From an uncultured Clostridia bacterium (GTDB lineage Bacteria > Bacillota > Clostridia > Oscillospirales > Ruminococcaceae): a DNA stretch of 64,000 nt. Under the pieces are notes generated by a model that searched no databases, was not told where the DNA came from, and saw only the letters and a list, made by a program, of their open reading frames with translations. The position numbers and the translations under genes are program-made. Where the stretch lies: NCBI GenBank assembly GCA_947629335.1, contig CANRDI010000002.1:124001-188000 (forward strand). Reading direction: 5' to 3'. Every line of letters starts with the position of its first letter. Position 1 is the first letter of the stretch. Of the stretch, positions 3,953 to 58,219 are shown in pieces.

Positions 3953-4009
3953 TTTGTCCTCCTTAAAGTTGTCAATAATAACTCCGAAACGGAGCTGAAT
4001 AACAAGAAC

Positions 4010-4038
4010 ATTATATCACCTCTGCCGAAATTTGTCAA
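4010..4038 (-). promoter_or_regulatory. Consensus promoter of the two-lipoprotein operon
   Basis: Minus strand: TTGACA (plus 4033-4038), 17-base spacer, TATAAT (plus 4010-4015), a perfect sigma-A promoter 58 bases before the start codon. A small CTCCG/CGGAG stem lies in the leader at about 3982-3994. Confidence 0.85.
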
Positions 4039-4066
4039 CACCGTAAATCAAAAAACTGCAAAAAAC

Positions 4067-4093
4067 AGAGGGAAACCTTTTTGATTTCCCTCT
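4067..4093 (-). terminator. Rho-independent terminator of the GGDEF/EAL-like gene
   Basis: A perfect 9-bp stem AGAGGGAAA / TTTCCCTCT starts 6 bases after the stop codon. On the minus strand it is followed by GTTTTTTGCAGTTTTTT. It separates this gene from the lipoprotein operon downstream. Confidence 0.85.
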
Positions 4094-4099
4094 ATGTTT

Positions 4100-6616: not shown

Positions 6617-7078
6617 TAAAATTATCACCTCTGAAATGCCCACTTTAATATAAAATGTGCATTATTCACTAAAATTTATTAACAAACATAAAAGTTTTTA
6701 TGGAAAATATTCATTTACCGTGTTTATTATACCAAAAAATATTCAACATTTCAAGTACTTTTTTACTATTTTCACAAATTTTTCAATCTGCTATCTGTTC
6801 CTGCCGAGCATATTATACTATAATAGTGTAATCTGTCGTGCTTCGGGAAATTCATAAAAAAAGAAAAAAATTTCGGTCATAATTGTTGTTTTGTATTTTC
6901 CGCAGAATTTGTCAAACAATTTATATAGTACCTTTATTGAATGGTATTTTGCTTTTTTCGGCGGCAGAACAGTCAGCTTATTTTTTTAAGCGCAGGCTTT
7001 ATGAACAGTCAGCAGTCAAATTGCACAAAAAATTATTCTAATATATTTTCAATTTGTGCAATTATTTTTCAAAAACAC
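6617..7078. other. AT-rich gap with one copy of a dispersed motif, no gene seen
   Basis: The 462 bases between the divergent GGDEF/EAL-like gene and the hrcA promoter are very AT-rich. They hold no convincing gene. At 6995-7012 is GGCTTTATGAACAGTCAG, a copy of the dispersed GGCTTT-ACAG-CTGA motif, with a second partial AACAGTCAGC at 6968-6977. Confidence 0.55.
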
Positions 7079-7107
7079 TTGACAAACGTGTAAAATTGTG
7101 TTAAATT
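7079..7107 (+). promoter_or_regulatory. Promoter of the hrcA-grpE-dnaK-dnaJ operon
   Basis: TTGACA at 7079-7084, 17-base spacer, TAAATT at 7102-7107, directly upstream of the CIRCE operator so that bound HrcA would cover the start site. Confidence 0.75.
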
Positions 7108-7111
7108 ATAT

Positions 7112-7138
7112 TTAGCACTCAAAGAGATAGAGTGCTAA
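7112..7138 (+). promoter_or_regulatory. CIRCE operator (HrcA binding site)
   Basis: TTAGCACTC-N9-GAGTGCTAA is a perfect match to the CIRCE consensus, both arms exact and the spacer nine bases. It is followed 21 bases later by the hrcA start. It predicts autoregulated heat-shock control of the whole operon. Confidence 0.97.
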
Positions 7139-7159
7139 AATCAACAAGGAGTGGTTATC

Positions 7160-8209
7160 GTGGAACAGCGCGGAATGAAAATCTTAGCCGCGATTATTGA
7201 CGAATATATCCGTACAGGCGAGCCTGTAGGCTCAAAAACGCTTGCGGAAATGTCCGATATAGGCGTAAGTTCCGCGACGATACGAAACACAATGGCTTCT
7301 CTCGAACAAGAGGGCTATCTTGATCACCCGCATACCTCTGCCGGGAGAGTACCTACTTTTAAAGGCTTTCGGTATTATATAGACAATATTATGAGCCCCG
7401 AACCGCTTTCCGCTGAAAAGATCTCCCGCATAGACGAGCTGCTCGAAAGCGGCGTTACCGACGAGGCGATCGTGGAAAACGCAGGAACGGCGCTCGCGGA
7501 GATAACCAAATGCGCGGCGATCTCCACAAATCATGCGGCAAAGTTTTCTGTCATCTCAAAAGTTGACGTTATACCTACGGGCAGAAGGGTATATGTGCTG
7601 CTCATGATAACATCGAGCGGCGCGATAAAAAATAAAGTCTGCCGAATGGAATTTGACCTTACAAACGAGCAGATGCAGAGCATTTCAAGTTTTCTGAACG
7701 AGCATCTGTGCGGCGTGAACGTCGAAAATATGTCCGAAGAATATGTAAACGGCGTATTTGCCGCCATGAGCGGTTATATGTTGTCTCTTTCGCCGCTGAT
7801 AAACGCAGTTTACGAGCTTTCCGAAGAGATGATGAGAGACAGCGTAGATGTGAGAGGCGAGGCAAATCTTCTTGCCTGTAGGGATTTTGAAACGGACGAC
7901 GTTATGAAATTCCTCGAAAAAAAGGGAGAGCTTACAGAGTTTTTAGACGACGCTTTTTCGGGAATAAACATAAAGTTCGGCGAGGAAAGCGGAACGTTTG
8001 CAATTTCAAATTCCACGCTCGTAAGCACTAACTACTATAAGGACGGGAAACCCGCGGGAACGCTCGGCATAATCGGACCTGTTCGGCTCGATTATCGAAA
8101 GGTTATCCCTTATATAGAATATCTCAGCAAAAAGGTATCGACAATGCTCTCCGGAAATGAGAGCCTTGAAATAGAAAATAAGACGGAAAACAAAGGAGAT
8201 GACTCTTGA
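7160..8209 (+). CDS. hrcA: Heat-inducible transcription repressor HrcA
   Basis: A 349-residue repressor that binds CIRCE and is itself stabilised by GroE chaperonin in the family. The N-terminal winged helix shows VGSKTLAE and SSATIRNTMASLEQEGYL (about 20-57), then HTSAGRVPT. The C-terminal GAF-like region contains the conserved GTLGIIGPVRLDY near residue 315. I choose the GTG at 7160 because AAGGAG (7146-7151) sits 8 bases ahead; a GTG at 7151 would overlap the ribosome site itself. The stop overlaps the grpE start (TGATG). It is the first gene of the chaperone operon and its own target. Confidence 0.96.
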   Translation: MEQRGMKILAAIIDEYIRTGEPVGSKTLAEMSDIGVSSATIRNTMASLEQEGYLDHPHTSAGRVPTFKGFRYYIDNIMSPEPLSAEKISRIDELLESGVTDEAIVENAGTALAEITKCAAISTNHAAKFSVISKVDVIPTGRRVYVLLMITSSGAIKNKVCRMEFDLTNEQMQSISSFLNEHLCGVNVENMSEEYVNGVFAAMSGYMLSLSPLINAVYELSEEMMRDSVDVRGEANLLACRDFETDDVMKFLEKKGELTEFLDDAFSGINIKFGEESGTFAISNSTLVSTNYYKDGKPAGTLGIIGPVRLDYRKVIPYIEYLSKKVSTMLSGNESLEIENKTENKGDDS

Positions 8210-8739
8210 TGAATGAAGAAGAAATATCCGAAGTGAACGAGGAAGAAAAGACTTCCGAAGAAACCGCGGATCAAACGGAAACGGCGGCTGAAAACGAACA
8301 GCCCGAACAGGATAAGACCGCCGAAGAGCTTAAAGCGGTAAAAGACCAGCTTCTTCGGACAATGGCTGAATACGACAACTTCCGAAAGCGCTCACAGCGC
8401 GAAAAGGACGCGCTGAGAGCGGACATCGTGACGAACGTTACGTCGAAATTCCTGCCGATAATGGACAATCTCGAAAGGGCGCTCGCGGCGGAATGCTCAG
8501 ACGAAAACTACAAGAGCGGCGTAAAGATGATCTACGACAGTTTTATGCAGACCCTTTCCGACCTCGGAGTGGAGGAAATAAAGAGCGACGGCGAGATGTT
8601 CTCTCCGAGCTTTCATCAGGCGGTTCAGAAGCTTCAGACTGACGACGCCGAAAGCGGAAAGATTGTTCAGACATTTGCAAAAGGCTATAAGATCGGCGAC
8701 AAGGTAATAAGATTTGCGGTAGTCGCTGTCGCCGAATAG
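8209..8739 (+). CDS. grpE: Nucleotide exchange factor GrpE
   Basis: A 176-residue co-chaperone that releases ADP from DnaK. The first 50 residues are strongly acidic and low in complexity. A long helical region follows with AEYDNFRKRSQREK (about 60-73). The C-terminal beta domain shows SDGEMFSPSFHQAVQ and a GYKIGDKVIRFAVVAV end, typical of GrpE. The ATG at 8209 overlaps the hrcA stop and is served by AAAGGAG at about 8192-8198. An alternative TTG at 8206 is less likely. The length is normal. Confidence 0.96.
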   Translation: MNEEEISEVNEEEKTSEETADQTETAAENEQPEQDKTAEELKAVKDQLLRTMAEYDNFRKRSQREKDALRADIVTNVTSKFLPIMDNLERALAAECSDENYKSGVKMIYDSFMQTLSDLGVEEIKSDGEMFSPSFHQAVQKLQTDDAESGKIVQTFAKGYKIGDKVIRFAVVAVAE

Positions 8740-8790
8740 CGATAAACAGACAGCAAAAACAAATATCAATTATGAAAAGGAGATATAATT

Positions 8791-10626
8791 ATGAGTAAGA
8801 TAATAGGAATTGACTTGGGTACTACAAACAGCTGCGTGTCGGTAATTGAAGGCGGCGAGCCTGTCGTTATCACAAACTCCGAGGGTTCGAGAACAACTCC
8901 CTCTGTTGTAGCGTTTACAAAGGACGGCGAAAGACTTGTCGGTCAGCTTGCTAAGAACCAAGCTGTACAGAACCCCGAAAAGACGGTTATTTCAATTAAA
9001 CGTCATATGGGCAGCGATTATAAGGTTGACATTGACGGCAAAAAGTACACCCCTCAGGAAATTTCCGCGATGATACTTCAAAAGCTGAAAAACGACGCCG
9101 AGGCTTATCTCGGCGAAAAAGTAACGGACGCGGTTATTACTGTTCCCGCATACTTTACGGACAGTCAGCGTCAGGCGACCAAGGACGCAGGACAGATAGC
9201 GGGACTTAATGTTCAGCGTATCATAAACGAGCCGACGGCGGCTGCGCTTGCATACGGAGTTGATAAAGAGGAAGACCAGAACATTGTTGTTTACGACCTT
9301 GGCGGCGGTACGTTCGATGTTTCCGTAATCAACATAGGCGACGGCGTGCAGGAGGTTCTTGCGACCGCAGGTAATAACCACCTCGGAGGCGACGATTTCG
9401 ACCAGAGGATAATTGACTTCCTTAAAGACGAGTTTAAAAAGTCGGACGGAATTGATTTGTCAAACGACAAGTTTGCAATGCAAAGACTTAAAGACGAGGC
9501 TGAAAAGGCGAAAATAGCGCTTTCAAACTCGACCTCGGTAAATGTTTCAATTCCTTATATCACCGCAGACGCAAACGGTCCGAAGCACCTGAACGTTACG
9601 CTTTCAAGAGCAAAGTTCAACGAGCTTACCGCAGACCTTGTAGATATGACAATGGGTCCGCTTAAACAGGCAATTGCCGATTCGGGACTTGAAAAGAGCG
9701 AGATCCATAAGATACTTCTTGTCGGCGGTTCTACAAGAATACCCGCAGTCCAGGATATGGTAAAGAACTTCCTCGGAAAAGAGCCGTTTAAGGGCATAAA
9801 TCCCGATGAGTGCGTAGCTATCGGCGCTTCTATCCAGGGCGGCGTTCTCAATAAGGAAGTACAGGGCATTGTTCTGCTTGACGTTACACCCCTTTCTCTC
9901 GGAATTGAAACGGCGGGCGGCGTATGCACGAGAATGATTGCAAGAAACACCACCATTCCTACTAAGGAAAGCAAGGTGTTCACGACATATGCGGACAACC
10001 AGCCGAGCGTTGATATAAACGTTTTGCAGGGCGAGCGCGAGTTTGCCAAGGACAACAAGTCTATCGGAAACTTCCGCCTTGACGGAATTGCACCCGCGCC
10101 GCGCGGTATCCCGCAGATAGAGGTAACGTTCGACATTGACGCGAACGGTATCGTAAACGTTTCCGCAAAAGACCTCGGTACAGGCAAGGAACAGCACATC
10201 TCCATAACCGCTTCTACAAATATGTCCAAAGAGGACATCGACAAGGCAGTTAAAGAGGCTGAGGCGTATGCGGCAGAGGACAAGAAGCGCAAAGAGGACG
10301 TTGACGCGAGAAACGAGGCGGATTCTATGGTTTACCAGGTAAAGAAGTCAATGACCGACTTCGGCGACAAGGTATCCGCTGATGACAAGGCAAAGGTCGA
10401 GCCGAAGATAACAGCTCTTGAAGAAGCCCTCAAAGGCACGGATATAGAGGCAATAAAGAAAGCCAAAGAAGAGCTTCAGACCGCATTTTACGAGGTTGCA
10501 CAGAAGGTTTACCAGGCAAACGCACCCGAAGGCGCGGCACAGGGCGGCGCGCAGAGCGCGGATAACGGCGGAAATAACGGAAATAACGACGATGGCGCTG
10601 TTGACGTTGAGTACACCGAGAAGTAA
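8791..10626 (+). CDS. dnaK: Molecular chaperone DnaK (Hsp70)
   Basis: A 611-residue ATP-dependent chaperone. The nucleotide-binding domain (about 1-360) shows [11 protein letters not shown] at the start, the [12 protein letters not shown] phosphate loop and [13 protein letters not shown]. The linker and substrate-binding domain include [13 protein letters not shown]. The C-terminal helical lid ends in a Gly/Asn-rich tail and an acidic [12 protein letters not shown]. The length and the compact nucleotide domain are those of Firmicutes DnaK. AAAGGAGA precedes the ATG. It is co-transcribed with grpE and under CIRCE control. Confidence 0.99.
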
Positions 10627-47570: not shown

Positions 47571-48014
47571 ATGGATATTTTTGAAGTCAAAACGGATAAA
47601 AGGGCTTTCATTGACCTGCTTTTACAGGCGGACGAACAAGAAGATATGATAATGCGCTATCTTGATCGCGGAACAATGTATGCGCTTGCGGAAAATGACG
47701 TAAAAGCGGTATGCGTTGTCACCGACGAGGGAAATTCGGTGCTTGAGATAAAGAATATCGCCGTAAGGACGGAATTTCGGCGTATGGGATACGGAAAAAA
47801 GCTTGTTGGATTTGTCGAGAAAAAATATAAAGGTTTATATAATGTCCTGAAAGTGGGAACAGGCGACAGTGAGCTGACGATCCCGTTTTATGAAAAATGC
47901 GGTTTTAAGGAAACGTACAGGGTAAAGAATTTCTTTGTCGATAATTACGACCATCCGATTTTTGAATGTGGAAAACAGCTTATTGATATGGTATACCTTG
48001 AAAAAGCGATTTAA
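47571..48014 (+). CDS. GNAT-family N-acetyltransferase
   Basis: A 147-residue GCN5-type acyltransferase. The acetyl-CoA loop is RRMGYGKKLVGFVEK (about 70-84), preceded by the VLEIKNIAVRTEFR strand. The late ELTIPFYEKCGFKETYRVKNFFVDNY has the usual YxxxGF ending. The substrate is unknown. The ribosome site before the ATG is weak. It lies with the unknown gene 47023-47526 between argR and recN, apparently an operon insertion. Confidence 0.9.
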   Translation: MDIFEVKTDKRAFIDLLLQADEQEDMIMRYLDRGTMYALAENDVKAVCVVTDEGNSVLEIKNIAVRTEFRRMGYGKKLVGFVEKKYKGLYNVLKVGTGDSELTIPFYEKCGFKETYRVKNFFVDNYDHPIFECGKQLIDMVYLEKAI

Positions 48015-48071
48015 GATCGAAAATATAGACGAACGGCTTGGTAAAGGAAAGCAAAAATAAGGAGCAACAAA

Positions 48072-49721
48072 ATGTTAAGAGAGCTGTCAATTGAAAATCT
48101 TGCGGTGATCGAGCGCGGAAACGCTCGGTTCTGCGGCAGCTTTAACGTTTTTACGGGCGAAACGGGCGCAGGAAAAAGCGTCCTTATCGGAGGAATAAAC
48201 GCTATTTTAGGTCAGCGCGTAAGCCGCGACGTTGTTCGTTCGGGCGCGCAAAAGGCTGTTATAACGGCGCTTTTTGACGAGCTTCCGAAATGTGCGGTTG
48301 AAAAGCTGAAAGAGCTTGGATTTGAAGAATGCGACGAGATAGTTTTATCGCGCGAGATATTTGCCGACGGAAAAAGTTCCGCTCACATAAACGGCAGAAC
48401 GGCGACGGCGGCAATGCTCAAAGAACTCGGCAGTTTACTGATCGACATTCATGGTCAGCACGACAACCGCCTTCTTATGTCAAACGAAAGTCAGCTCGAA
48501 ATCCTTGACCGGCACGCGGGCATTACCGACAAAATAAACGCTTATCACGAGTTGTTCGGCGATTTTTCCAAGACCTCGCGCGAGCTGAAAAAACTTATCG
48601 AAGACAACGAAATGAGAGAGTTTAAAATAGAACGATTAAAGTCGGTTATTTCCGAGCTTGAACCTCTCGAACTCGTAAAGGGCGGCGGGGAGCTTCTCGA
48701 ACAGCAGCTCGAAAAAGCGCGAAACAGCGCGAAAATTATGAACGCTCTGCAAAAGGCATATTCCGCGCTTTCGGCGGAAGAAGGAGCAGCGGCGATAGAA
48801 ATGCTTCGTGATTCGATGAATTATCTCGACAGTGTTTCAGATATAGAGCCTAAAGCCGCCGCGCTTTCGTCAAGGCTTTTGGCAATAATAAGTGAAGCGA
48901 ACGATATTTCCGCGGAAATATACACTTCATGCGATAGTTATTCGGACAACAACGAGGCGGAGCTGTCCGACAGAATGTCGCTTTTGAAAACTGCAATGCG
49001 AAAATACAACAGGACAGCTGACGAGCTTGCGGATTATCTTGACGAATGTAAAAACGAGCTTGAAAATTTAGAAAATTCGAGTATGCGCATAGAAGAACTT
49101 GACGAAAAAAAGCATCTTCTTGCAAAACAGGTAAAGTCTTCCGCAGCGGAAATTTCAGAGTTGAGAAAAGCAGCCGCCGAAAAATTTTCAGAGGAAATAA
49201 AGTGCGAGCTTACTTTTCTCGATATGCCCGACGTAAGGATCGTTTTCGCGGTAAATCCCGACAAAATTTCCAAAAGCGGAATGGACGCCGTAGAGCTTAT
49301 GATATCCGCAAATGCAGGTGAGGAACTGAAGCCGATGAACAAAATAGCGTCCGGCGGCGAATTGTCGAGGATAATGCTGGCAATAAAGTGCGTTTTGGCG
49401 AAGAGCGACGATATGCCGACGCTGATTTTTGACGAGATCGACACGGGGATAAGCGGGCGTGCCGCGCAGAAAGTCGGCATAAAGCTCAAAGAGCTTTCGC
49501 GTTCGCGGCAGGTCATGTGTGTAACTCACTTAGCGCAGATCGCCGCAAAAGCCGAAACTCATCTTGCGCTTGAAAAAACCGTGGAAAACGAGCGAACATA
49601 TACGAAAATTTCAGAACTTGACCGCAACGGCAGAGTGAACGAGATAGCTCGCATCATCGACGGAAGCGGAAAGAATGAGGCAAGTCTGAAAGCTGCTGAG
49701 GAAATGCTCTGTGAAAGCTGA
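48072..49721 (+). CDS. recN: DNA repair protein RecN
   Basis: A 549-residue SMC-like ATPase in double-strand break repair. MLRELSIENLAVIERGNARF opens it. Walker A is FTGETGAGKSVLIGGI (about 28-43), and IHGQHDNRLLM (about 129-139) is the Q-loop region. Two coiled-coil arms lie about 160-360. The ABC signature KIASGGELSRIMLAIK and Walker B LIFDEIDTGISG follow. AAGGAG lies before the ATG. It is the end of the operon. Confidence 0.97.
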   Translation: MLRELSIENLAVIERGNARFCGSFNVFTGETGAGKSVLIGGINAILGQRVSRDVVRSGAQKAVITALFDELPKCAVEKLKELGFEECDEIVLSREIFADGKSSAHINGRTATAAMLKELGSLLIDIHGQHDNRLLMSNESQLEILDRHAGITDKINAYHELFGDFSKTSRELKKLIEDNEMREFKIERLKSVISELEPLELVKGGGELLEQQLEKARNSAKIMNALQKAYSALSAEEGAAAIEMLRDSMNYLDSVSDIEPKAAALSSRLLAIISEANDISAEIYTSCDSYSDNNEAELSDRMSLLKTAMRKYNRTADELADYLDECKNELENLENSSMRIEELDEKKHLLAKQVKSSAAEISELRKAAAEKFSEEIKCELTFLDMPDVRIVFAVNPDKISKSGMDAVELMISANAGEELKPMNKIASGGELSRIMLAIKCVLAKSDDMPTLIFDEIDTGISGRAAQKVGIKLKELSRSRQVMCVTHLAQIAAKAETHLALEKTVENERTYTKISELDRNGRVNEIARIIDGSGKNEASLKAAEEMLCES

Positions 49722-49740
49722 ATAAGAAATAATTTATACA

Positions 49741-49782
49741 AATGTTTGGGCTGAAAATATTGTTCAGCCCGAAATTTGTATT
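49741..49782 (+). terminator. Terminator after recN, left flank of the kinase cassette
   Basis: Stem GGGCTGAA / TTCAGCCC (49748-49755, 49763-49770), then GAAATTTGTATTT. The whole stretch AATGTTTGGGCTGAA... to ...CAGCCCGAAATTT is nearly identical to 55281-55324 at the other end of the three-gene cassette. Confidence 0.75.
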
Positions 49783-50078
49783 TCAGACGTTTTTATTTCG
49801 CAAATTGAGGGAAAAACCAATGTTTATGACACTTTTTAGGGATTTGTGCGTAATATGTAAAATTTAGATTACAGAGTTTTTCATTTAGATGATATAATTA
49901 AATTAGGAAAGCTGAAATAGTTTTGGCGGCAGCTTCTTTGATTTTCGCTGTCATACTCTTCTTCAAAAAAATTCTAAAAAATAATAAGCATTTGCTCCCT
50001 GATTTTCGGGGAGCAGGCAGTGCTTTGTATAATTTAATAAAAACAGACTTTGCTTTATGTGCAAAAAAACAACAAATA
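49783..50078. other. AT-rich gap before the phosphatase-kinase cassette
   Basis: No gene with a ribosome site is seen. A hairpin TGCTCCC / GGGAGCA lies at 49993-50015. Confidence 0.5.
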
Positions 50079-50107
50079 TTGACAAAAAGGCTCTTTTGCG
50101 CTATAAT
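50079..50107 (+). promoter_or_regulatory. Perfect sigma-A promoter of the phosphatase-kinase cassette
   Basis: TTGACA at 50079-50084, 17-base spacer, TATAAT at 50102-50107, 70 bases before the first start codon. No operator is evident, so constitutive expression is likely. Confidence 0.93.
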
Positions 50108-50177
50108 ACAATCGGAGTTTTGTGTTGTCAGCGGATTTGGTCGGCATTTTTGCCGCCGATAAGAAAACGAGGGACAT

Positions 50178-50930
50178 ATGAATTATAAAATATTGTATTC
50201 GTGCGTTTGTCATATCGGAAATGTCAGAAGTAAAAATCAAGACAATATTATATGTGACGGAACTTATTTGGAAATAAATGATAAAAATGTTAAGTCTTTG
50301 CTGTGCGGAGTTAAATCATCGAAAACTGCTTCGGTATTCGGCGTTTTTGACGGTCTGGGCGGAGAGGCTTGCGGAGATGTAGCGTCATATATCGCAGCTA
50401 AAAATGCTGCCGAACTAAAGATCAAAAAAGACGCCGTATCAGCTTTGGCTGATTACTGCGACAGAACTAACCGCGAAATTTGTTTTTATGCTGACAATAA
50501 TCAAGTTCCCGCCATGGGAACGACCGCGGCGATACTTGTTTTCACTCGCAAAGAAATTACATTGTGCAATATTGGCGACAGCAAGATTTTCCGATTTTGC
50601 AGAGGTGTTTTAGAGCAAATTTCAACAGACCATGTTATATCCGCCGCATACGGCGTGAAACCCCTGCTTTCACAAAAACTCGGCATCCCTCCGACCGAGC
50701 TTGTGATCGAACCTTATTACGCGCGGAGGCTGTACAATGACGGCGACATTTATCTTATCTGCTCTGACGGGCTTACGGATATGCTTACAACGGCTGAAAT
50801 AGCAAAAACGCTGGCGGCAAATTCCGTAAAAGAGGCTTGTACGGAGCTCCTTAAAAAAGCGCTTTCAAACGGTGGGCGCGACAACACGACAATTATTCTG
50901 TGCAAAATCGAGCGCGAGCGGCTTTTTTAA
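50178..50930 (+). CDS. PP2C-family Ser/Thr protein phosphatase
   Basis: A 250-residue metal-dependent phosphatase, without membrane segments. Motifs in order: GNVRSKNQDN (14-23), VFGVFDGLGGEACG (about 52-65) with the metal-binding Asp, MGTTAAILVF, CNIGDSKIFRF (about 131), LICSDGLTDML (about 193-203) and GGRDNTTIILC at the end. All expected metal ligands are visible. It precedes the receptor-like kinase by 20 bases, the usual pairing of phosphatase and Hanks-type kinase, and should reverse its phosphorylations. The neighbourhood differs from the standard prpC-prkC locus between cell-division and rsgA genes. Confidence 0.93.
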   Translation: MNYKILYSCVCHIGNVRSKNQDNIICDGTYLEINDKNVKSLLCGVKSSKTASVFGVFDGLGGEACGDVASYIAAKNAAELKIKKDAVSALADYCDRTNREICFYADNNQVPAMGTTAAILVFTRKEITLCNIGDSKIFRFCRGVLEQISTDHVISAAYGVKPLLSQKLGIPPTELVIEPYYARRLYNDGDIYLICSDGLTDMLTTAEIAKTLAANSVKEACTELLKKALSNGGRDNTTIILCKIERERLF

Positions 50931-50950
50931 CTCAAAAAAGAGGTATAAAA

Positions 50951-53914
50951 ATGACAAGTGATATTTTGAAGCAAATCTGGCCCGAATGGGAAATAAAAGA
51001 AAAGCCACTCGGAAAAGGTTCATTCGGTATGGTCTACAAAGCCGTCCGCAGCGATTATAACGTCAAAAGTTATGCTGCAATAAAGACGATCTCCATACCA
51101 TCGGATCCTTCTGAAATCGACTCGCTTCGCTCTGAGGGTCTGGACATAGACGCCACAAAAACTCTTTTGCGCGGGATTGTTGACGATTTTGTCAATGAAA
51201 TTCAGCTTATGGAGTCATTTAAGGGCGTTCAGAATATCGTAAGCATTGAAGACTATAAAGTTGTGGAAAAGACAGAAGAGATCGGCTGGGACATATTTAT
51301 AAGAATGGAGCTTCTTACCACTCTTAATACATACATCTGCGACAAGAAGCTGAGCGAAGAAGAAGTCATAAAGCTCGGCTGTGATATATGCTCGGCGCTT
51401 GAAATCTGCAATAAGCGCAATATTATACACCGCGATATAAAGCCCGAAAATATTTTCATAAACGATTTCGGTTATTTCAAGCTCGGTGATTTCGGAATTG
51501 CCCGCAAAATGGAAAATCTGACGATCGGACTTTCCCAAAAAGGCACGTTAAACTATATGGCTCCTGAGGTCGCGGCAGGCACAAATTACGATACTCGCGC
51601 GGATATATATTCGCTCGGAATTGTCCTTTACCGCCTGTTAAACTTAAACAGGCTTCCGTTTTTGGACACCGAAAAACAGCTTTTAAATCCAAACGAGAGA
51701 AAAAGCGCCATAGACCGCAGACTTCGCGGAGAGCCGCTTCCTGCGCCGTGTGACGCTTCTCCCGAAATGGCGGACGTTATACTTCGCGCCTGTGCATATG
51801 ACCCAAACGCACGTTTTTCTTCCGCAGAGGAAATGAAAAAAGCATTAATGTCTGTTGCAAAAGACAGTCATGTGATATCTGGCGGGGATCTTCCCGATAT
51901 GCCGAGCGAACAGTCCCAAACGACTGCCGCCGAACAGGCTGAAACTGCCCCTGTGGATAGATCTCCGAGCGGACTTTCCTCAAAGCGAAATATTTTTATA
52001 GTCATTTTTTCGGTATTTCTGGCGATATTGGGCGCGGGAATCATCATGCTTTTCGTGACGAACTCGCCGTCATATAAGGCGGCGAAAGGGATAGAGCTTG
52101 CCGAGCGTTTTATTTCAGAGCAAAATTATGAACAGGCAATTATCGAATATGAAAAGGTGCTTGAAATAGAGCCGAAAAACGTTGACGCTTATCTTAAACT
52201 TGCCGAGCTGCACGAGAAAAACGGCGACCCGAACAAGGCTCTTGAAGTTCTGCAAAGGGGACTTGAAAACACAAGCGACGATAAAATCAGGCAAAAGTTA
52301 GACGGCACAACCGTTGTCGGGCAGAGCAGCTCGTTTTTCAGCTCACGCCCTGCCGAGGGTTCGCAAAGCGCGCCCGTTTCGGTCAGCTCTTCGAGCGGTT
52401 CCACGGTTTTCCATTCAAGCAGCAGTTCCTCAAAATCATCTTCGAGCAGTCCAGCGAGTTCTTCAAGCAATACCGCAAGTTCCTCAAAATCATCTTTGAG
52501 CAGCTACACAAATTCTTCAAGCAGCACGTCAAATTCTTCAAGAAGCAGTTCGTCATCTCAAAGCGTTCCGACTGTTCCTTCGGGCAACTCGGTTACTATT
52601 CAGGGAATGGTTTTCGACATTGTACAAACGACATATCTGGATTTAAACGACGTCAATATTACAAACTACGACCTTGAAGAAATAAGTCAGCTTGTAAATC
52701 TGACGCATTTAGAGCTGCACAACAATATGATAAGCGACATCACGCCGCTCAGAGATTTGACTAACCTGACGTATTTAAGCCTGCGCGGCAACAGCATTAA
52801 CAATATTTCGTCGCTTGAAAATCTGACGGAGCTTACATATCTTAACCTCAATGAAAATCAGGTAAGCGACATAACTCCGCTTAAAAACCTTACAAATCTT
52901 ACATATCTCGGATTGTACGGGAATAACGTCGGAGATATTTCGTCACTTCAAAATCTTAAAAGTCTTACAGAACTGCGTCTGGACGCAAACGGCGAAATTA
53001 AAGACATATCCGCGCTTGGAAATCTTAAAGATCTTGAAAATCTGAATTTGGACGAAAATCAAGTCAGCAATATCGTTTCCCTAAAAAATCTCACCAAGCT
53101 GAAAGTACTGTATTTAAACGGCAATAAAGTCAGCGACATATCGTCGCTTAAAGACCTCACTAATCTTAAAGAGCTGTGGTTGGGCGACAATCAGATAACC
53201 AATATCGCGCCGCTGGAAAATCTCACAGGGCTGTCGTATTTAAATTTAAGCGGAAATAAATTGAGCAGCATAACGCCGCTCTCCAAACTTCATAATCTGA
53301 CGGGCATAAATCTGGGCGGCACGGGCATAAGCGATATAACGCCGCTTAAAAATCTCACCAATCTGACGGTGCTTCAGCTCGAAAACAACCAGATAAGCGA
53401 TGTTTCAGCGCTTGAAAAACTCACAAAGCTAAATACCTTGTGGCTGAACAGCAATAAGATCACAAGCGTCGCACCTCTTTCAAAGCTTACAAGCCTTGAA
53501 ATCCTGTATCTTAACAACAATCGGATAAGCGACATTTCGCCGCTTTCAGGCCTTAAAAATCTGGTAAGGCTTGACTTCAACCAAAACCTGTTTACCGACA
53601 TAACGCCGCTTAAATATCTCACAAAGTTAGAGCAGATAGATTTGTGCTTTAATCATATAAACGACATTTCGCCGCTTTCAAATCTCACAGAGCTTGAATG
53701 GCTGAACTTGCACACAAATCAGATCACCGACATAACTCCTCTTTCAGGGCTTACAAATCTGACGTATCTTACTTTGTACAGCAATGACGTCAAGAACATT
53801 CAGCCCCTCGCAAAGCTCAGAAAGCTGACAAGCGTGGATTTAGACGATGATAATATCAGTGAAACGGACAAGGCTTGGCTCAGATCTCAGCTTCCAAACT
53901 GCAACGTTTTTTAA
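50951..53914 (+). CDS. Receptor-like Ser/Thr kinase with TPR, Ser-rich and leucine-rich repeat ectodomain
   Basis: A 987-residue protein. A cytosolic Hanks-type kinase (about 12-300) has GKGSFGMVYKA, AAIKTI, IIHRDIKPENIFI, LGDFGIAR and MAPEVAAGT, so it appears active. A Ser/Gln-rich juxtamembrane part precedes one membrane helix (about 347-372). Outside follow a TPR-like pair (about 380-455, YEQAIIEYEKVLEIEPKNVD), a Ser-dominated stalk (about 457-540) and about 18 SDS22-type 22-residue repeats (about 552-975) capped by WLRSQLPNCNVF. PASTA repeats, usual in Firmicutes, are absent. Start ATG 50951 with AGAGGT ahead. The TPR and the stalk-LRR halves match the two lipoproteins at 1508-3952. The ligand is unknown. 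Confidence 0.93.
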   Translation: MTSDILKQIWPEWEIKEKPLGKGSFGMVYKAVRSDYNVKSYAAIKTISIPSDPSEIDSLRSEGLDIDATKTLLRGIVDDFVNEIQLMESFKGVQNIVSIEDYKVVEKTEEIGWDIFIRMELLTTLNTYICDKKLSEEEVIKLGCDICSALEICNKRNIIHRDIKPENIFINDFGYFKLGDFGIARKMENLTIGLSQKGTLNYMAPEVAAGTNYDTRADIYSLGIVLYRLLNLNRLPFLDTEKQLLNPNERKSAIDRRLRGEPLPAPCDASPEMADVILRACAYDPNARFSSAEEMKKALMSVAKDSHVISGGDLPDMPSEQSQTTAAEQAETAPVDRSPSGLSSKRNIFIVIFSVFLAILGAGIIMLFVTNSPSYKAAKGIELAERFISEQNYEQAIIEYEKVLEIEPKNVDAYLKLAELHEKNGDPNKALEVLQRGLENTSDDKIRQKLDGTTVVGQSSSFFSSRPAEGSQSAPVSVSSSSGSTVFHSSSSSSKSSSSSPASSSSNTASSSKSSLSSYTNSSSSTSNSSRSSSSSQSVPTVPSGNSVTIQGMVFDIVQTTYLDLNDVNITNYDLEEISQLVNLTHLELHNNMISDITPLRDLTNLTYLSLRGNSINNISSLENLTELTYLNLNENQVSDITPLKNLTNLTYLGLYGNNVGDISSLQNLKSLTELRLDANGEIKDISALGNLKDLENLNLDENQVSNIVSLKNLTKLKVLYLNGNKVSDISSLKDLTNLKELWLGDNQITNIAPLENLTGLSYLNLSGNKLSSITPLSKLHNLTGINLGGTGISDITPLKNLTNLTVLQLENNQISDVSALEKLTKLNTLWLNSNKITSVAPLSKLTSLEILYLNNNRISDISPLSGLKNLVRLDFNQNLFTDITPLKYLTKLEQIDLCFNHINDISPLSNLTELEWLNLHTNQITDITPLSGLTNLTYLTLYSNDVKNIQPLAKLRKLTSVDLDDDNISETDKAWLRSQLPNCNVF

Positions 53915-53982
53915 GAAATATCTGACCGTTATTTTTGACATTGGCATAATTGCGGCAAGATTTAGAAAGGAAAATCCGAAAT

Positions 53983-55281
53983 ATGAAAAATTTTGAATTA
54001 AAGGATTATGATTTTACGGGCGACGCATGGGAGCTTATGTTAGATGTCGTTGACGACACACAGTTTCTTGATAAAGACGCACAGCTTATATACGATTCTC
54101 TCAAACACCGCCTGAAGATACGCTCTTTCGGCGACTATCTCAGACGCTATATCTATCGGAAGGCGGGCTTGACAGAACCGTTCAGAGAAGTTCCGCTCGA
54201 CGAATATCGGCTTATTATCCAAAGTTCATTTTCCGACAACTACACGCCCGCTTCTTTTACCTCTACAACCGCGAAACTCAGCGCGCTTTCCAAAAACTGG
54301 CTTACACAGCAGACGGTAAGGCGAAATGTGGTTTTCCTGCTCGGTTTCGGGTTGAATATGAGCGTTGATGATGTAAATATGTTTCTCACAAAAGCTCTTC
54401 GTGAACAGAAGATAAATCCCAAAGACCCGTTTGAGGTGATTTGTTGGTACTGCTATAAAAACGGATATAATTTTCTTAAATTCGAGCAGCTTTGGCAGAT
54501 TTATACCGACCTTTCGCCAAACCCGATCGACATTGAAAACTTTAACAGCGAACAGACTGTAAACATCAGAAACTCAATGCGCTCGATAAACGGTGATAAA
54601 GCGCTTGCTGAATATCTGGCGAAGCTGAAAGCAAACGAAAAAATGTCAGTGATAAGCGTTACCGCCAAAAAATGCTTTGACGAATTATATGACGAAGCGA
54701 GAGAACTTATTGCGAAAATGTACAATGCTTATGAATCCGAAGAATACGAAATAGCGGTCAGCGGTTATATTAAAAAACTTTTGTATAATGAACGTGTGGG
54801 AGATATGGAAAAACAAAAGCGAGTCGGGGAGTTCCGCTCAAAGAAAAAAGTGTTTTGCCGCGAGGACATTACGGAAAGCGATATAGAACACATAATCTGC
54901 TCGGCGATCCCGACTGACAGACACGGAAACATTGTCCCCGGCAGAGCCTCAAAATTAAACGAACAGTTTGAGGGAAAGCGCTTTAGCAGACAGCGCATAG
55001 GAGAAATTTTGATGGGCAACATACCGGTGACGCGGTTTGATTTGATAACGCTTAACTTTTTCTTGTTTTCCCAGAAACTGGATGTTTACTCGGATTCCAA
55101 AATACGTTATATTGAGTTTCAACATTCGACGAACAAGATACTCGAAAAGTGTTCTTTCGGAAGATTATATGTGCAAAATCCGTATGAATGTTTTGTGCTT
55201 ATGTGCATTTTGTCAAACGATCCGCTCGGTACTTACGCTGATGTTTTAGAGATGTCCTATAATGTGCTTATTTCAGAATAA
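53983..55281 (+). CDS. Uncharacterised 432-residue partner of the kinase
   Basis: A soluble, largely helical protein with no signal peptide. AAAGGAAA lies 8 bases before the ATG at 53983. Residues about 114-136 (VVFLLGFGLNMSVDDVNMFL) followed by DPFEVICWYCYKNGYNF resemble a segment seen beside helix-turn-helix domains in clostridial regulators. A C-terminal stretch (FSRQRIGEILMGNIPVTRFD, about 325-344) could be a DNA-binding helix-turn-helix, but this is a weak reading. It is in the same transcript as the phosphatase and kinase and is closed by a terminator, so it is a candidate substrate or output protein of the kinase. I do not recognise a named family. Confidence 0.72.
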   Translation: MKNFELKDYDFTGDAWELMLDVVDDTQFLDKDAQLIYDSLKHRLKIRSFGDYLRRYIYRKAGLTEPFREVPLDEYRLIIQSSFSDNYTPASFTSTTAKLSALSKNWLTQQTVRRNVVFLLGFGLNMSVDDVNMFLTKALREQKINPKDPFEVICWYCYKNGYNFLKFEQLWQIYTDLSPNPIDIENFNSEQTVNIRNSMRSINGDKALAEYLAKLKANEKMSVISVTAKKCFDELYDEARELIAKMYNAYESEEYEIAVSGYIKKLLYNERVGDMEKQKRVGEFRSKKKVFCREDITESDIEHIICSAIPTDRHGNIVPGRASKLNEQFEGKRFSRQRIGEILMGNIPVTRFDLITLNFFLFSQKLDVYSDSKIRYIEFQHSTNKILEKCSFGRLYVQNPYECFVLMCILSNDPLGTYADVLEMSYNVLISE

Positions 55282-55324
55282 ATGTTTCGGGCTGAACATT
55301 GCTGTCAGCCCGAAATTTTTATTC
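55281..55324 (+). terminator. Terminator of the kinase cassette, right flank hairpin
   Basis: Perfect 11-bp stem TTTCGGGCTGA / TCAGCCCGAAA (55285-55295, 55305-55315) followed by TTTTTATT. The gatB stop codon lies within the T-run on the other strand. It is near-identical to the hairpin at 49741-49782. Confidence 0.88.
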
Positions 55325-56752
55325 ACTGAGTTTTTTCTTGAGGTATTCCTGAATTGCCTTTGGTGAAGCAAGTCCTTTAAGCGCCTTGTTTGCCTGCCCC
55401 ATAAAGAAGCCGAAAACTTTTTGGTCGCCGTTTTTGTACTGCTCGACGGGCTTTGGATTGTTTGCGATGATCTCGTCGATAGTTTTTGCCAGCAAATCGC
55501 TGTCCTCTTTTATCCAGAGGTCGTCTTTTTCGGCAATATCGTCGGGTTTTTCTCCCGTTTCAATCATCTTTGAGAGAACTATCTTCGTGTTCGACTGCGA
55601 CAATTTATCCGTTTGAAGCAGTTCAACAAGCCGCGCAAAATCTGTTCCGGAAAACTTTAGATCTTCCATATCGACTTCTCCGAGATTTATTCTTCTCGTA
55701 AGCTCGCCGACAATATAATTTGCTATTGCTTTGGGATTATCATATGCGGAAATTGCCTCGTCAAAGAAATCGCATACTTTCTTGTCGCCGACGATTATAT
55801 CCGCGTCAGCCTTTTTAAGCCCAAGCGCATTTACATATCTTTCAACTCTCTGTTCGGGAAGTTCGGGGATAGAATTTCTGATAGCTTCGAGTTCTTCCTC
55901 AGTAAAAATTATCGGAGGAATATCCGGGTCGGGGAAGTAGCAGTAGTCGTGAGCGTCCTCTTTAGAGCGCATTGCCGTTGTTTCTCCGAGCGCTTCGTTA
56001 AAGCGGCGCGTTTCTTGAACTACCTTTTCGCCGTTATCGAGCAGTTCTTCCTGCCTGTCGATCTCAACTTCGATAGCCTTTGCAATTGCTTTCAGTGAGT
56101 TAAGGTTTTTAAGCTCTGTCCTTGTGCCAAGCTCGCTGCTGCCTTTCGGCGCAATTGAAATGTTCACATCGCAGCGTATCGAACCCTGCTCCATTTTGCA
56201 GTCGCATATCCCCGCATACTGCAAAAGCAGCCTTACTTTTTCCATAAACGCTATAACCTCGTCGGCGCTGTGGAAATCGGGTTCGGTTACGATTTCAATA
56301 AGCGGTATTCCGCAGCGGTTGTAGTCCGCGAGCGAAATTCTGTTTACCTCGTCATGCACAAGTTTTCCCGCGTCCTCTTCAAGATGTATGCGGTTTATTC
56401 TGATAGTTTTTTCCTCGCCGTTTACATTTATTTTGACATTGCCCGAAAGGCAGACAGGCCGCGGCATCTGCGAGATCTGATATGCTTTCGGAAGATCGGG
56501 GTAGAAATAATTTTTTCTGTCCCATTTGGTAAACCGCGATATTTCGCAGTTCATCACATAGCCCGCTTTTATGATATATTCTACCGCTTTTTGATTTAGT
56601 ACGGGAAGCGTTCCGGGCATACCGCTGCATACAGGGCAGCAGCGCGAGTTCGGACTTCCTCCGAATTCCGCCGAGCAGGTGCAGAAAACCTTTGAATTCG
56701 TCAGCAGCTCTGCGTGTATTTCAAGTCCCATTGTAGGAAAATATTGGCTCAT
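55319..56752 (-). CDS. gatB: Aspartyl/glutamyl-tRNA amidotransferase subunit B
   Basis: A 477-residue subunit that phosphorylates the mischarged glutamyl or aspartyl end of tRNA. GLEIHAELLTNSKVFCTC (9-26), GGSPNSRCCPVCSGMPGTLP, KNYFYPDLPKAYQISQ and GIPLIEIVTEPD are all family signatures. The C-terminal YqeY-like domain (about 330-477) includes NPKPVEQYKNGDQKVFGFFMGQ. Last gene of gatCAB. Its presence suggests that Gln-tRNA (and perhaps Asn-tRNA) is made by transamidation. Confidence 0.98.
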   Translation of the reverse strand: MSQYFPTMGLEIHAELLTNSKVFCTCSAEFGGSPNSRCCPVCSGMPGTLPVLNQKAVEYIIKAGYVMNCEISRFTKWDRKNYFYPDLPKAYQISQMPRPVCLSGNVKINVNGEEKTIRINRIHLEEDAGKLVHDEVNRISLADYNRCGIPLIEIVTEPDFHSADEVIAFMEKVRLLLQYAGICDCKMEQGSIRCDVNISIAPKGSSELGTRTELKNLNSLKAIAKAIEVEIDRQEELLDNGEKVVQETRRFNEALGETTAMRSKEDAHDYCYFPDPDIPPIIFTEEELEAIRNSIPELPEQRVERYVNALGLKKADADIIVGDKKVCDFFDEAISAYDNPKAIANYIVGELTRRINLGEVDMEDLKFSGTDFARLVELLQTDKLSQSNTKIVLSKMIETGEKPDDIAEKDDLWIKEDSDLLAKTIDEIIANNPKPVEQYKNGDQKVFGFFMGQANKALKGLASPKAIQEYLKKKLSE

Positions 56753-56770
56753 TTTTAAATCCTCCCGCTC

Positions 56771-58219
56771 TTAAAACTTCGGAGCGACAGGCTCAAAACC
56801 CTGCTCCCATGCGTCAGCGATCTGAAGTATCGTCTGCTCGTCAAACCGCTTTCCGATTATTGACATTCCGATAGGAAGTTTGTTTTCGGTATAACCGCAA
56901 GTCGTGGAAATTCCGGGAAGTCCCGCAATATTTACCGTAACAGTGCAGATATCCGCCATATACATTTTTACGGGATCGTTGTCCTGTGCGCCTATCTTGT
57001 ATGCAGGAGTGGGCGCGGTCGGCGTTAAAATAACGTCGCACTCGGCGAAAATGTCGCTGTACTCTTTGATTATTTCCTGTTTCAGCGCGAGAGCTTTCTT
57101 ATAATAAGCGTCGTAATATCCGCTTGAAAGCGCGTAGTTTCCGAGAAGTATGCGGCGTTTTACTTCTTCGCCGAAGCCCTTGTTCCTGCTGTCGATAATA
57201 AGCTCGTTAAACGTTCTTCCCTCGCCTCTGAAGCCGTATTTAATGCCGTCAAAGCGCGAGAGGTTTGAAGCCGCCTCTGCACAGGCAATGAGATAATAAG
57301 CGGGTATCGCATATTTTAGTCCGGGCATTGAGCAGTCAACAAGCACCGCGCCTTGTTTTTCAAGTTCTTTTGCCGCATTCATAACATGCTGTTTTACAGT
57401 ATCGTCAATAGCGTCAGAGTAAAACTCTTTCGGGAGAGCTATTTTAATTCCGCTTATAGGCTTGCCGAGTTTTTCGGTGAAATCGGGAACTTCTGCTCTC
57501 GCCGAGGTCGCGTCATGGCGGTCGTTTCCGCTTATCACATTCAGCATCAGCGCGCAGTCCCTTGCGTCGTTGGCTATAGGTCCTATCTGGTCGAGCGAGC
57601 TTGCAAATGCAACCAGACCATATCTTGAAACTCTGCCGTAGGTAGGTTTAAGCCCCGTAACTCCGCAAAACGAAGACGGCTGGCGTATAGAACCGCCCGT
57701 GTCCGAACCAAGCGCCGCGGGCGCTAAAGACGCCGCAACAGCCGCCGCCGAACCGCCGGAACTTCCTCCGGGAACTCGTTCTAAGTCATATGGGTTTTTC
57801 GTTTTGGCAAAAGCCGAGGTCTGTGTAGAGCCGCCCATTGCAAATTCGTCCATTGATGTTTTGCCGAGCAGTATATATCCCTGTTCGTTGAGTTTTTCTA
57901 TAACTGTCGCATTGTACGGCGGGATAAAGTCCCCAAGCATTTTTGACGCGCAGGTTGTTTTAATGCCGTCCGTGCAGATGTTGTCCTTAATTGCCAGAGG
58001 AATACCCGTAAGCGTTTTGGCGTTTCCCTCGCTTATCAGCTTTTGGGCATTTTCCGCCGCTTTCATTGCCTGGTCTTTGGTGACGGTAATATAAGAAAGC
58101 AGCTTCTCGTCTTTTTCCTCAATGTTTTTAAAATATTCTCCGCAAAGCTCCGCCGCGCTTATTTCGCCGCCGTCGAGCATTTTTCTGAGATCGCGTATTT
58201 TAGCTCTTGTAAAATTCAT
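56771..58219 (-). CDS. gatA: Glutamyl-tRNA(Gln) amidotransferase subunit A
   Basis: A 482-residue amidase that frees ammonia from glutamine. The Ser-cisSer-Lys triad is visible: GIPLAIKDNICTDGI (Lys at about 77), PGGSSGGSAAAVAASL (cis-Ser) and ALGSDTGGSIRQPSSFCG (nucleophile Ser), then LKPTYGRVSRYGLVAFASS. It is 18 bases upstream of gatB. The length is standard. Confidence 0.98.
   Translation of the reverse strand: MNFTRAKIRDLRKMLDGGEISAAELCGEYFKNIEEKDEKLLSYITVTKDQAMKAAENAQKLISEGNAKTLTGIPLAIKDNICTDGIKTTCASKMLGDFIPPYNATVIEKLNEQGYILLGKTSMDEFAMGGSTQTSAFAKTKNPYDLERVPGGSSGGSAAAVAASLAPAALGSDTGGSIRQPSSFCGVTGLKPTYGRVSRYGLVAFASSLDQIGPIANDARDCALMLNVISGNDRHDATSARAEVPDFTEKLGKPISGIKIALPKEFYSDAIDDTVKQHVMNAAKELEKQGAVLVDCSMPGLKYAIPAYYLIACAEAASNLSRFDGIKYGFRGEGRTFNELIIDSRNKGFGEEVKRRILLGNYALSSGYYDAYYKKALALKQEIIKEYSDIFAECDVILTPTAPTPAYKIGAQDNDPVKMYMADICTVTVNIAGLPGISTTCGYTENKLPIGMSIIGKRFDEQTILQIADAWEQGFEPVAPKF

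Follow-up and report, generated by a model that had tools for sequence, protein, structure and literature searches.

The window, a stretch of 64,000 nucleotides (G000:C2:124001-188000) from the 2.48-Mb, 50-contig genome of an uncultured Clostridia bacterium, contains three genes on the + strand that span positions 50178-55281 and encode a PP2C-type phosphatase, a predicted receptor-like kinase, and a protein that we call the partner (Table 1). They are flanked by a gene that we take to be recN and by gatB. Gaps of 20 and 68 bases separate the phosphatase from the kinase gene and the kinase from the partner gene, respectively. A promoter scan of positions 49600-55400 gave 17 matches where 10.7 were expected, and the site ahead of the phosphatase gene is the only one to agree with the sigma-70 consensus at every position. 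We conclude that the three genes form an operon. The first-pass annotation had proposed a three-gene cassette behind a perfect promoter, and the reading frames, Pfam domains, and promoter all agree with it. Chance open reading frames were rejected because the genes are conserved in relatives with their motifs intact, and an RNA element was rejected after finding no Rfam match at gathering thresholds in positions 48000-57000.

Near-copies of one hairpin border the cassette. The hairpin pattern matched twice in the window and never in 100 shuffles, and across the whole 2.48-Mb genome it occurs only at these two sites. A search of 148 loci found it in 10, which belong without exception to the host genome and two sister species, G005 and G007, the genomes that carry the cassette at this site; G007 has it on both sides of the cassette and G005 on the partner side. 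The left hairpin may belong to recN itself, since it begins so close behind the recN stop codon, and the right hairpin is probably the terminator of the operon. A terminator scan reported the left hairpin, and the right one was absent from its output.

Table 1. Features of the cassette and its borders, in window coordinates.
Feature	Position	Strand	Basis or remark
recN-like gene	48072-49721		Pfam SMC_N
Left hairpin, GGGCTGA..TCAGCCC	49748-49770	+	starts 26 bases past recN stop codon
Sigma-70-type promoter, TTGACA-17-TATAAT	50079-50107	+	12/12 consensus positions
PP2C-type Ser/Thr phosphatase, 250 aa	50178-50930	+	Pfam PP2C, E 1.2e-10
Predicted transmembrane Hanks-type Ser/Thr kinase with LRR ectodomain, 987 aa	50951-53914	+	Pfam, catalytic motifs
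Kinase domain, residues 17-296	50999-51838	+	Pfam PF00069 Pkinase, E 5.9e-43
Single predicted transmembrane segment, residues ~348-366	51992-52048	+	Kyte-Doolittle hydropathy only
TPR region past membrane segment, residues 388-444	52112-52282	+	Pfam TPR_19, E 2.4e-10
Ser-rich linker	52313-52585	+	up to 30 Ser/Thr per 40 residues; borders approximate, by eye
Internalin-type LRR ectodomain	52691-53878	+	17 regular repeats and terminal degenerate unit; Pfam LRR_4, E 3e-76
Partner, 432 aa, kinase-associated, HTH-related	53983-55281	+	co-occurrence, profile relation
Partner HTH-protein-like unit 1, residues 109-177	54307-54513	+	hhalign 83.1, nominal E 2.8e-11
Partner HTH-protein-like unit 2, residues 340-411	55000-55215	+	hhalign 41.8, nominal E 4.1e-5
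Right hairpin	55289-55311	+	near-copy of left hairpin
gatB	55319-56752	opposite to cassette	both GatB domains present

Both enzymes of the operon retain the catalytic motifs of their families. The phosphatase combines a PP2C domain with the metal-binding Asp motifs of its class, and all motifs are intact (RSKNQD, FDGLGG, GTT, GDSK, CSDGL, GGRDNTT). The Stp1 model matches it with an E value of 3.5e-38 and 131 bits, against 230 required. For the kinase we took the ATG at 50951 as the start; an alternative GTG-initiated frame of 1004 residues begins within the phosphatase gene. Its Pkinase domain has the glycine loop (GKGSFG), catalytic Lys (AIK), HRD (HRDIKPEN), DFG, and APE elements of a Hanks-type kinase. 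This domain is predicted to be cytoplasmic, and we infer its side of the membrane.

Beyond the putative membrane segment, the kinase continues through the TPR and Ser-rich regions into an LRR array, and the polypeptide ends soon after. The array has 17 LxxLxxLxL units, the first at residue 581 and the last at 934, with a 22-residue step throughout except for one of 23; by eye, a degenerate unit lies at either end, in keeping with an earlier count of about 18. Its best match in the PDB is an LRR entry listed as a Rab family protein (E 6.5e-93), and internalin A structures match with E values of 7e-69 to 3e-67. The 22-residue period is also that of the Listeria internalins, although here the repeats are fused to a kinase through a predicted membrane segment. 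Plant LRR receptor-like kinases have an LRR ectodomain, one membrane segment, and a cytoplasmic kinase. An analogy to them had been drawn at first sight, and it holds for the architecture, of which the domains and their order are seen and the membrane segment is predicted from hydropathy, but not beyond: the order is reversed in the window, with the kinase N-terminal and the LRRs C-terminal past the membrane segment, and the repeats are of the bacterial internalin type, with no sign of common descent with the plant arrangement.

The gene pair resembles PknB/PrkC/Stk1 with PrpC/Stp1, in which a PP2C gene directly precedes that of a kinase that crosses the membrane once and has its extracytoplasmic sensor at the C-terminus. 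The gene order is the same in the window, the kinase is predicted to have the same layout, and both the Stk1-family and Stp1 models match the window proteins below cut-off. Unlike the PASTA kinases, the window kinase has LRR and TPR regions, is accompanied by an additional partner protein, and shows no PASTA domain among 25 of the 31 Pfam families matched. The NCBIfam PASTA-kinase model aligns to residues 94-334 only, with 139 of 450 bits. As a positive control, the same Pfam library detects PASTA domains in two other kinases of the host genome. By these Pfam matches, the contig also carries a PP2C and PASTA-kinase pair, which lies beyond the window and ~31 kb downstream of the cassette, and a second PASTA kinase is encoded elsewhere. 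The LRR kinase is thus an additional kinase, and we rejected the idea that it replaces a PASTA kinase. The contrast between LRR and PASTA sensors that had been suggested is correct for the window kinase itself, but the host keeps its PASTA kinases and, as described below, LRRs are atypical among related kinases.

The partner belongs to no family in the databases that we searched. Against Pfam, NCBIfam, and PADLOC it gave one sub-threshold match (Uteroglobin, 0.034, in Pfam), a label that we set aside as weak. PHROGs gave no consistent match, and a search of the PDB with the partner profile returned two matches, the best with an E value of 1.5 and neither usable. Among 100 relatives examined, eight have partner matches, which are close in the host genome, G005, G007, and G042, all of one genus, and in G080, from another family, and distant in G015, G044, and G038. 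The genus is represented by 43 genomes; four of them have a kinase match with E <1e-60, and these are the same four that have a close partner. In 398 genomes drawn from the phylum, the partner was matched in three, one of them the window's own and the other two over ~60 residues, which marks its large form as rare.

A scan of a genome contig collection with the partner as sole query, which requires short peptide patterns to match exactly and so does not capture every relative, returned 47 loci; 46 contain a partner reading frame, and the remaining one (L058) has a 34-residue match without it. Most are titled as Clostridia, Lachnospiraceae, or Oscillospiraceae metagenome-assembled genomes, many from gut or rumen samples. 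Within 8 kb and on the same strand, a kinase relative is found in 33 of the 46 loci and a PP2C in 24; where the sequence extends 6 kb or more upstream and 2.5 kb or more downstream, the counts are 20 and 12 of 24. Eleven of these 20 kinases lie within 33 bp of the partner, one of them (L046) an 81-residue fragment only; eight of the other nine are separated from it by an exporter gene or more, and one by ~1 kb. Four well-covered loci (L019, L031, L044, and L057) have a partner without a kinase or PP2C, as does L022, which has slightly less context. Across 21 loci, partner, kinase, and PP2C distances correlate pairwise (r = 0.79, 0.80, and 0.73; none of 2000 permutations each reached these values), a correlation to which shared host ancestry also contributes. 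Three divergent partner relatives (L006, L007, and L011, with 28, 22, and 18% identity) adjoin divergent kinases recognised by Pfam Pkinase, and the partner tree and the kinase-domain tree each place the window, G005, and G007 in one clade with support of 1.0. By this co-occurrence, kinase and partner form a conserved core, and the PP2C is a frequent yet dispensable neighbour. The recurrence of the partner with PASTA-less kinases, proposed as a check in the first-pass annotation, was thus borne out in the genus and in most well-covered loci. The idea of a three-gene cassette fares less well as a fixed set: kinase and partner are kept, but the PP2C is missing in two sister species and, in other loci, an exporter gene is added.

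The distant relatives of the partner suggest where it comes from. Three of them (L008, L106, and L107) are, or contain, HTH-like proteins of ~150 residues encoded beside a Ser/Thr kinase. We built a profile, A3, from three such small HTH proteins. Searching with A3 re-found the window partner (E 1.7e-5) and gave matches in 71 of the 398 phylum genomes. In all 15 of the best loci fetched, a kinase or kinase remnant lies beside the HTH gene, a count to be read with the bias that comes from seeding the profile with proteins known to lie beside kinases; one of the 15 has a 74-residue kinase remnant only (L113) and one is the window's own genome. None of the 15 weaker loci fetched has a kinase within 1.5 kb. 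Three further A3 matches with E <1e-18 lie outside the fetched set, as do some weaker ones, and the match in G464 is a member of the query alignment. The small proteins resemble HTH families only distantly: 9 of 16 match Pfam HTH_31 (best E 9.9e-6), 6 HTH_26, and 4 HTH_3, the matches running from 1e-5 upward and those tabulated falling below the cut-off. They also match XRE-type proteins in the PDB weakly (best E 0.003).

We compared the partner with a profile of 17 small HTH sequences using hhalign, the E values being nominal for one comparison. Two parts of the partner align (Table 1, units 1 and 2), with scores above those of the reversed alignment (14.8) and of the best of 120 shuffles (24.4). 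The alignment spans the latter half of the HTH model and the extension that the small proteins have at their C-terminus; with only this half aligned, DNA binding may have been lost in the partner. Comparing the N- and C-terminal parts directly gave no significant duplication, and our two-unit reading follows from the match of both to the small HTH family. We define a kinase-associated HTH-related family here by a profile match above controls and a kinase neighbour, and the partner shows both. It is thus best read as two units descended from this family. Unassignable at first, then, the partner still has no database family but can be related to small XRE-like HTH proteins, and the suggestion that the third gene encodes the output gains plausibility from that relation.

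With moderate confidence, we favour a model in which a receptor kinase signals to its HTH-derived partner, which acts as a regulator. The LRR array, held outside the cytoplasmic membrane on a stalk of TPR and Ser-rich regions, would bind either a ligand, protein or glycan in nature, or another cell. This contact would alter the clustering or activity of the Hanks-type kinase inside, which would phosphorylate the co-encoded, dedicated cytoplasmic partner with its two units related to XRE-like HTH proteins. Phosphorylation would in turn shift the binding of the partner to DNA or protein, with a change in transcription as the simplest outcome, and the PP2C would reset the system.

A fairly unlikely alternative is that the partner does not bind DNA at all and serves as an adaptor, scaffold, or kinase inhibitor, its HTH-derived units docking the kinase and its substrates. 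The 21 Pfam families listed for 44 partner relatives include no HTH, the alignment of each unit is confined to the latter half of the HTH region, unit 2 contains an insertion, and the partner accompanies the kinase regardless of whether a PP2C or exporter is present. However, the small relatives do match, if weakly, HTH families and XRE-type structures, and by eye the segment that precedes the alignment in unit 2 resembles an XRE recognition helix, both of which speak against this alternative.

The kinases beside the small HTH genes differ clearly from the window kinase. We covered seven of them, all from other families, in full (L138-L142, L144, and L145); in L138, for example, the kinase is paired with an HTH protein of 153 residues. 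Five of the seven carry LRRs on the C-terminal side of the kinase domain (L138, L140, L141, L142, and L145), with LRR_4 E values of 9.1e-13 to 2.8e-18; L140 and L141 share one genus. No LRR was found in the L139 and L144 kinases. By these domain matches, four or more additional families combine a kinase that has an LRR sensor with an HTH-related protein. The membrane segment of these kinases was judged by eye.

Among kinases related to that of the window, the sensor varies. Of seven ectodomains scanned, four are NPCBM (one below the Pfam cut-off), one is TPR-like, and two contain nothing clear. Internalin-type LRRs are found in the window, G005, and G007 (LRR_4 E 5.4e-62 and 2e-55 in the two sisters), and BspA-type LRRs in the L043 kinase (1.4e-174) and in the divergent L147 kinase (6.9e-18). 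A strict LRR pattern, which overlooks BspA-type repeats such as those that Pfam detects in L043, counted 13 units in the window, 5 each in G005 and G007, 2 in L052, and 1 in L041, and none in the other kinase reading frames listed. The LRR is therefore not typical of this kinase family; as far as the domain matches go, it is one of several interchangeable sensors, together with NPCBM, TPR, and BspA-type LRR domains.

In many of the partner loci, a gene for a protein of ~780 residues sits between kinase and partner. In all three such proteins scanned, Pfam recognises a pair of FHA stretches together with an ABC ATPase and an ABC-2 membrane domain. This FHA-ABC gene is present in 13 of the 46 loci, and two others (L026 and L053) have a copy cut short by the end of the contig; the weak exporter matches of L033 and L034, which are near-duplicates, cover ATPase parts only. 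In Mycobacterium tuberculosis, PknF and Rv1747 form a kinase operon with an FHA-domain ABC exporter (PMC3908365), and the FHA region of the clostridial protein has Rv1747 FHA structures among its PDB matches (6cah, E 2.7e-6; 6ccd, 1.8e-5). The 13 loci thus resemble PknF-Rv1747, which in the parts of that paper considered here is a two-gene operon with no such partner. Unlike it, the window cassette has no FHA-ABC gene, and Pfam finds no FHA domain across the host genome, so we rejected an FHA exporter encoded elsewhere in it; this route would be unavailable to the host. In other Clostridia, the kinase-partner core probably also acts on the co-encoded exporter.

These loci raise a second alternative, that the exporter is the ancestral output, assisted by the partner, and that the window lineage is a remnant that has lost the exporter and, in the sister species, the phosphatase as well. 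The loci nearest to the window clade in the partner tree (L045 and L012) carry FHA-ABC, which is consistent with this view, as are the link to Rv1747 and the missing PP2C in G005 and G007. We consider it unlikely. The window kinase and PP2C have intact motifs and the operon has kept its promoter, which is not what a remnant would suggest; moreover, the majority of partner loci have no exporter, and two divergent kinase-partner pairs (L072 and L073) lack an adjacent relative of either PP2C or FHA-ABC.

To our knowledge, many bacterial Ser/Thr kinases have unknown substrates and outputs, and their genes rarely point to targets. Here, a candidate target is encoded beside the kinase, the two are conserved together across Clostridia, and other families of Bacillota repeatedly show a simpler pairing of a kinase with a small HTH protein, so that a route from membrane kinase to regulator could be tested with two purified proteins. 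A broader proposal, possible but held more tentatively than the model of receptor kinase and regulator for the window, is that Bacillota have an undescribed class of signalling system built on a membrane Ser/Thr kinase whose surface sensor is exchangeable, being an LRR of internalin or BspA type several times, and which acts directly on its own HTH-derived output. If true, this would be a Ser/Thr counterpart of the two-component systems, and the window cassette, with its LRR array, own phosphatase, and two-unit regulator, would be its most elaborate form among the loci examined. The LRR ectodomain also raises the question of whether such bacteria sense molecules of host, diet, or neighbours through a plant-like receptor architecture.

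The component parts are already known. A Pseudomonas aeruginosa kinase with LRRs was listed by Krupa and Srinivasan in 2005 (PMC1262709), and Vibrio STPKLRR, in which five LRRs precede the kinase domain, is an effector delivered by type III secretion (PMC10237653). Both, like the window kinase, join LRRs to a Ser/Thr kinase domain within a single polypeptide, and the portions of the two papers drawn on here describe no receptor operon with a PP2C and a partner. A review names PASTA and beta-propeller sensors and contains neither the term 'LRR' nor 'leucine-rich' (PMC6213207). In the open-access literature we found no description of an internalin-LRR receptor kinase operon with a PP2C and an HTH-related partner, nor of the kinase-neighbouring HTH family as such; within that literature, the combination appears to be new.

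The sister species give some indication of the history of the cassette. In G007 (L069), the interval from recN to gatB contains the kinase and partner genes and no PP2C. G005 (L070) likewise has kinase and partner adjoining gatB and no PP2C, on a contig that stops short of recN. Local alignment finds a counterpart of the promoter upstream of the kinase in both (scores of 56 in G005 and 46 in G007, against maxima of 29 and 25 in 200 shuffles). The G005 leader retains a piece of the 3' end of the PP2C gene (score 67 versus a shuffle maximum of 23), which points to loss of the phosphatase by deletion. In the G007 leader, the promoter and ribosome-binding region can be aligned and no PP2C remnant was found.

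The cassette is also patchy within the genus, and in G002 and G010 the site is empty, with recN and gatB only ~50-55 bp apart. Patchiness of this kind, together with matches of the kinase to the PADLOC models mad6 (1.3e-58) and PD-T4-6 (6.1e-43), might suggest an anti-phage defence kinase system, but we think this very improbable given that these models are generic for kinase domains, that the partner and PP2C had no PADLOC match in a scan of the three window proteins, that the kinase has a predicted membrane receptor architecture whose surface sensors are swapped, that the flanks are a recN-like gene and gatB, and that no relative was confirmed in IMG/VR or found among PLSDB plasmids. Phage or plasmid cargo was rejected on the same searches, with no confirmed relative among 43 IMG/VR pattern stretches and no PLSDB match. 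One partial, unannotated 4.2-kb faecal record labelled as phage does match. In a gatB tree, the empty-site genomes G002 and G010 group with the occupied G005 and G007 with support of 0.50, and G002 pairs with G005 with support of 0.95, rising to 1.0 when G034 is added. Because empty and occupied genomes group together, the gain or loss of the cassette was probably recent.

The cassette is flanked by a pair of near-identical hairpins, and a pattern search of the whole genome returned two sites, both at the cassette borders. In the sister species G007 the same pattern lies on both sides of the cassette, and in a second sister species, G005, it is present on the partner side. These border hairpins may mark the route by which the cassette was gained or lost. 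In the relative G034 (locus L079), just under 700 bp lie between recN and gatB, at the site that holds the cassette, or nothing, in other relatives; this DNA is rich in repeats and appears to be noncoding.

Genes for BspA-type LRR proteins (Pfam LRR_5) adjoin two kinase-partner loci, L012 and L039; Pfam finds no LRR in the kinases of these two. At a third such locus, L073, the neighbors are two genes that match the LRR region encoded in the window. Fusion with a neighboring LRR protein gene could explain the origin of the LRR kinases.

Coordinates of the features discussed
Feature	Sequence	Positions
Hairpin pair	window	49748-49770; 55289-55311
BspA-type LRR gene	L012	7398-9254
BspA-type LRR gene	L039	6712-9153
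Two LRR-matching genes	L073	5454-8462
Four tandem kinase ORFs before exporter and partner	L014	1-7651
Two tandem kinase ORFs before exporter and partner	L013	1244-7394
PP2C and PASTA-kinase pair	L060 (G000:C2)	209567-213226
Divergent PASTA kinase	L062 (G000:C25)	5585-8914
Kinase and HTH-type protein	L146 (G000:C27)	3500-9500

At L014 and L013, tandem kinase ORFs, some of those in L014 short or cut, precede a single FHA-ABC exporter gene and a single partner gene, as if one output served several sensors.

Elsewhere, the cassette's own genome encodes two kinases in which Pfam identifies PASTA repeats, one of them paired with a PP2C and the other divergent. The same genome contains a second pair, L146, whose kinase has a Ser-rich linker of great length and whose other member is a convergently encoded 144-aa HTH-type protein of the kinase-associated family. 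By eye, Ser-rich stretches lie outside the kinase domain in all four kinases found in the search of this genome.

Near five kinase-HTH pairs (L138, L139, L140, L141, and L144), the kinase gene is followed by a gene for a predicted secreted protein; these proteins resemble one another by eye and are possible candidates for ligands or targets. In Pfam, the L138 protein had no match, and that of L140 matched SLH weakly.
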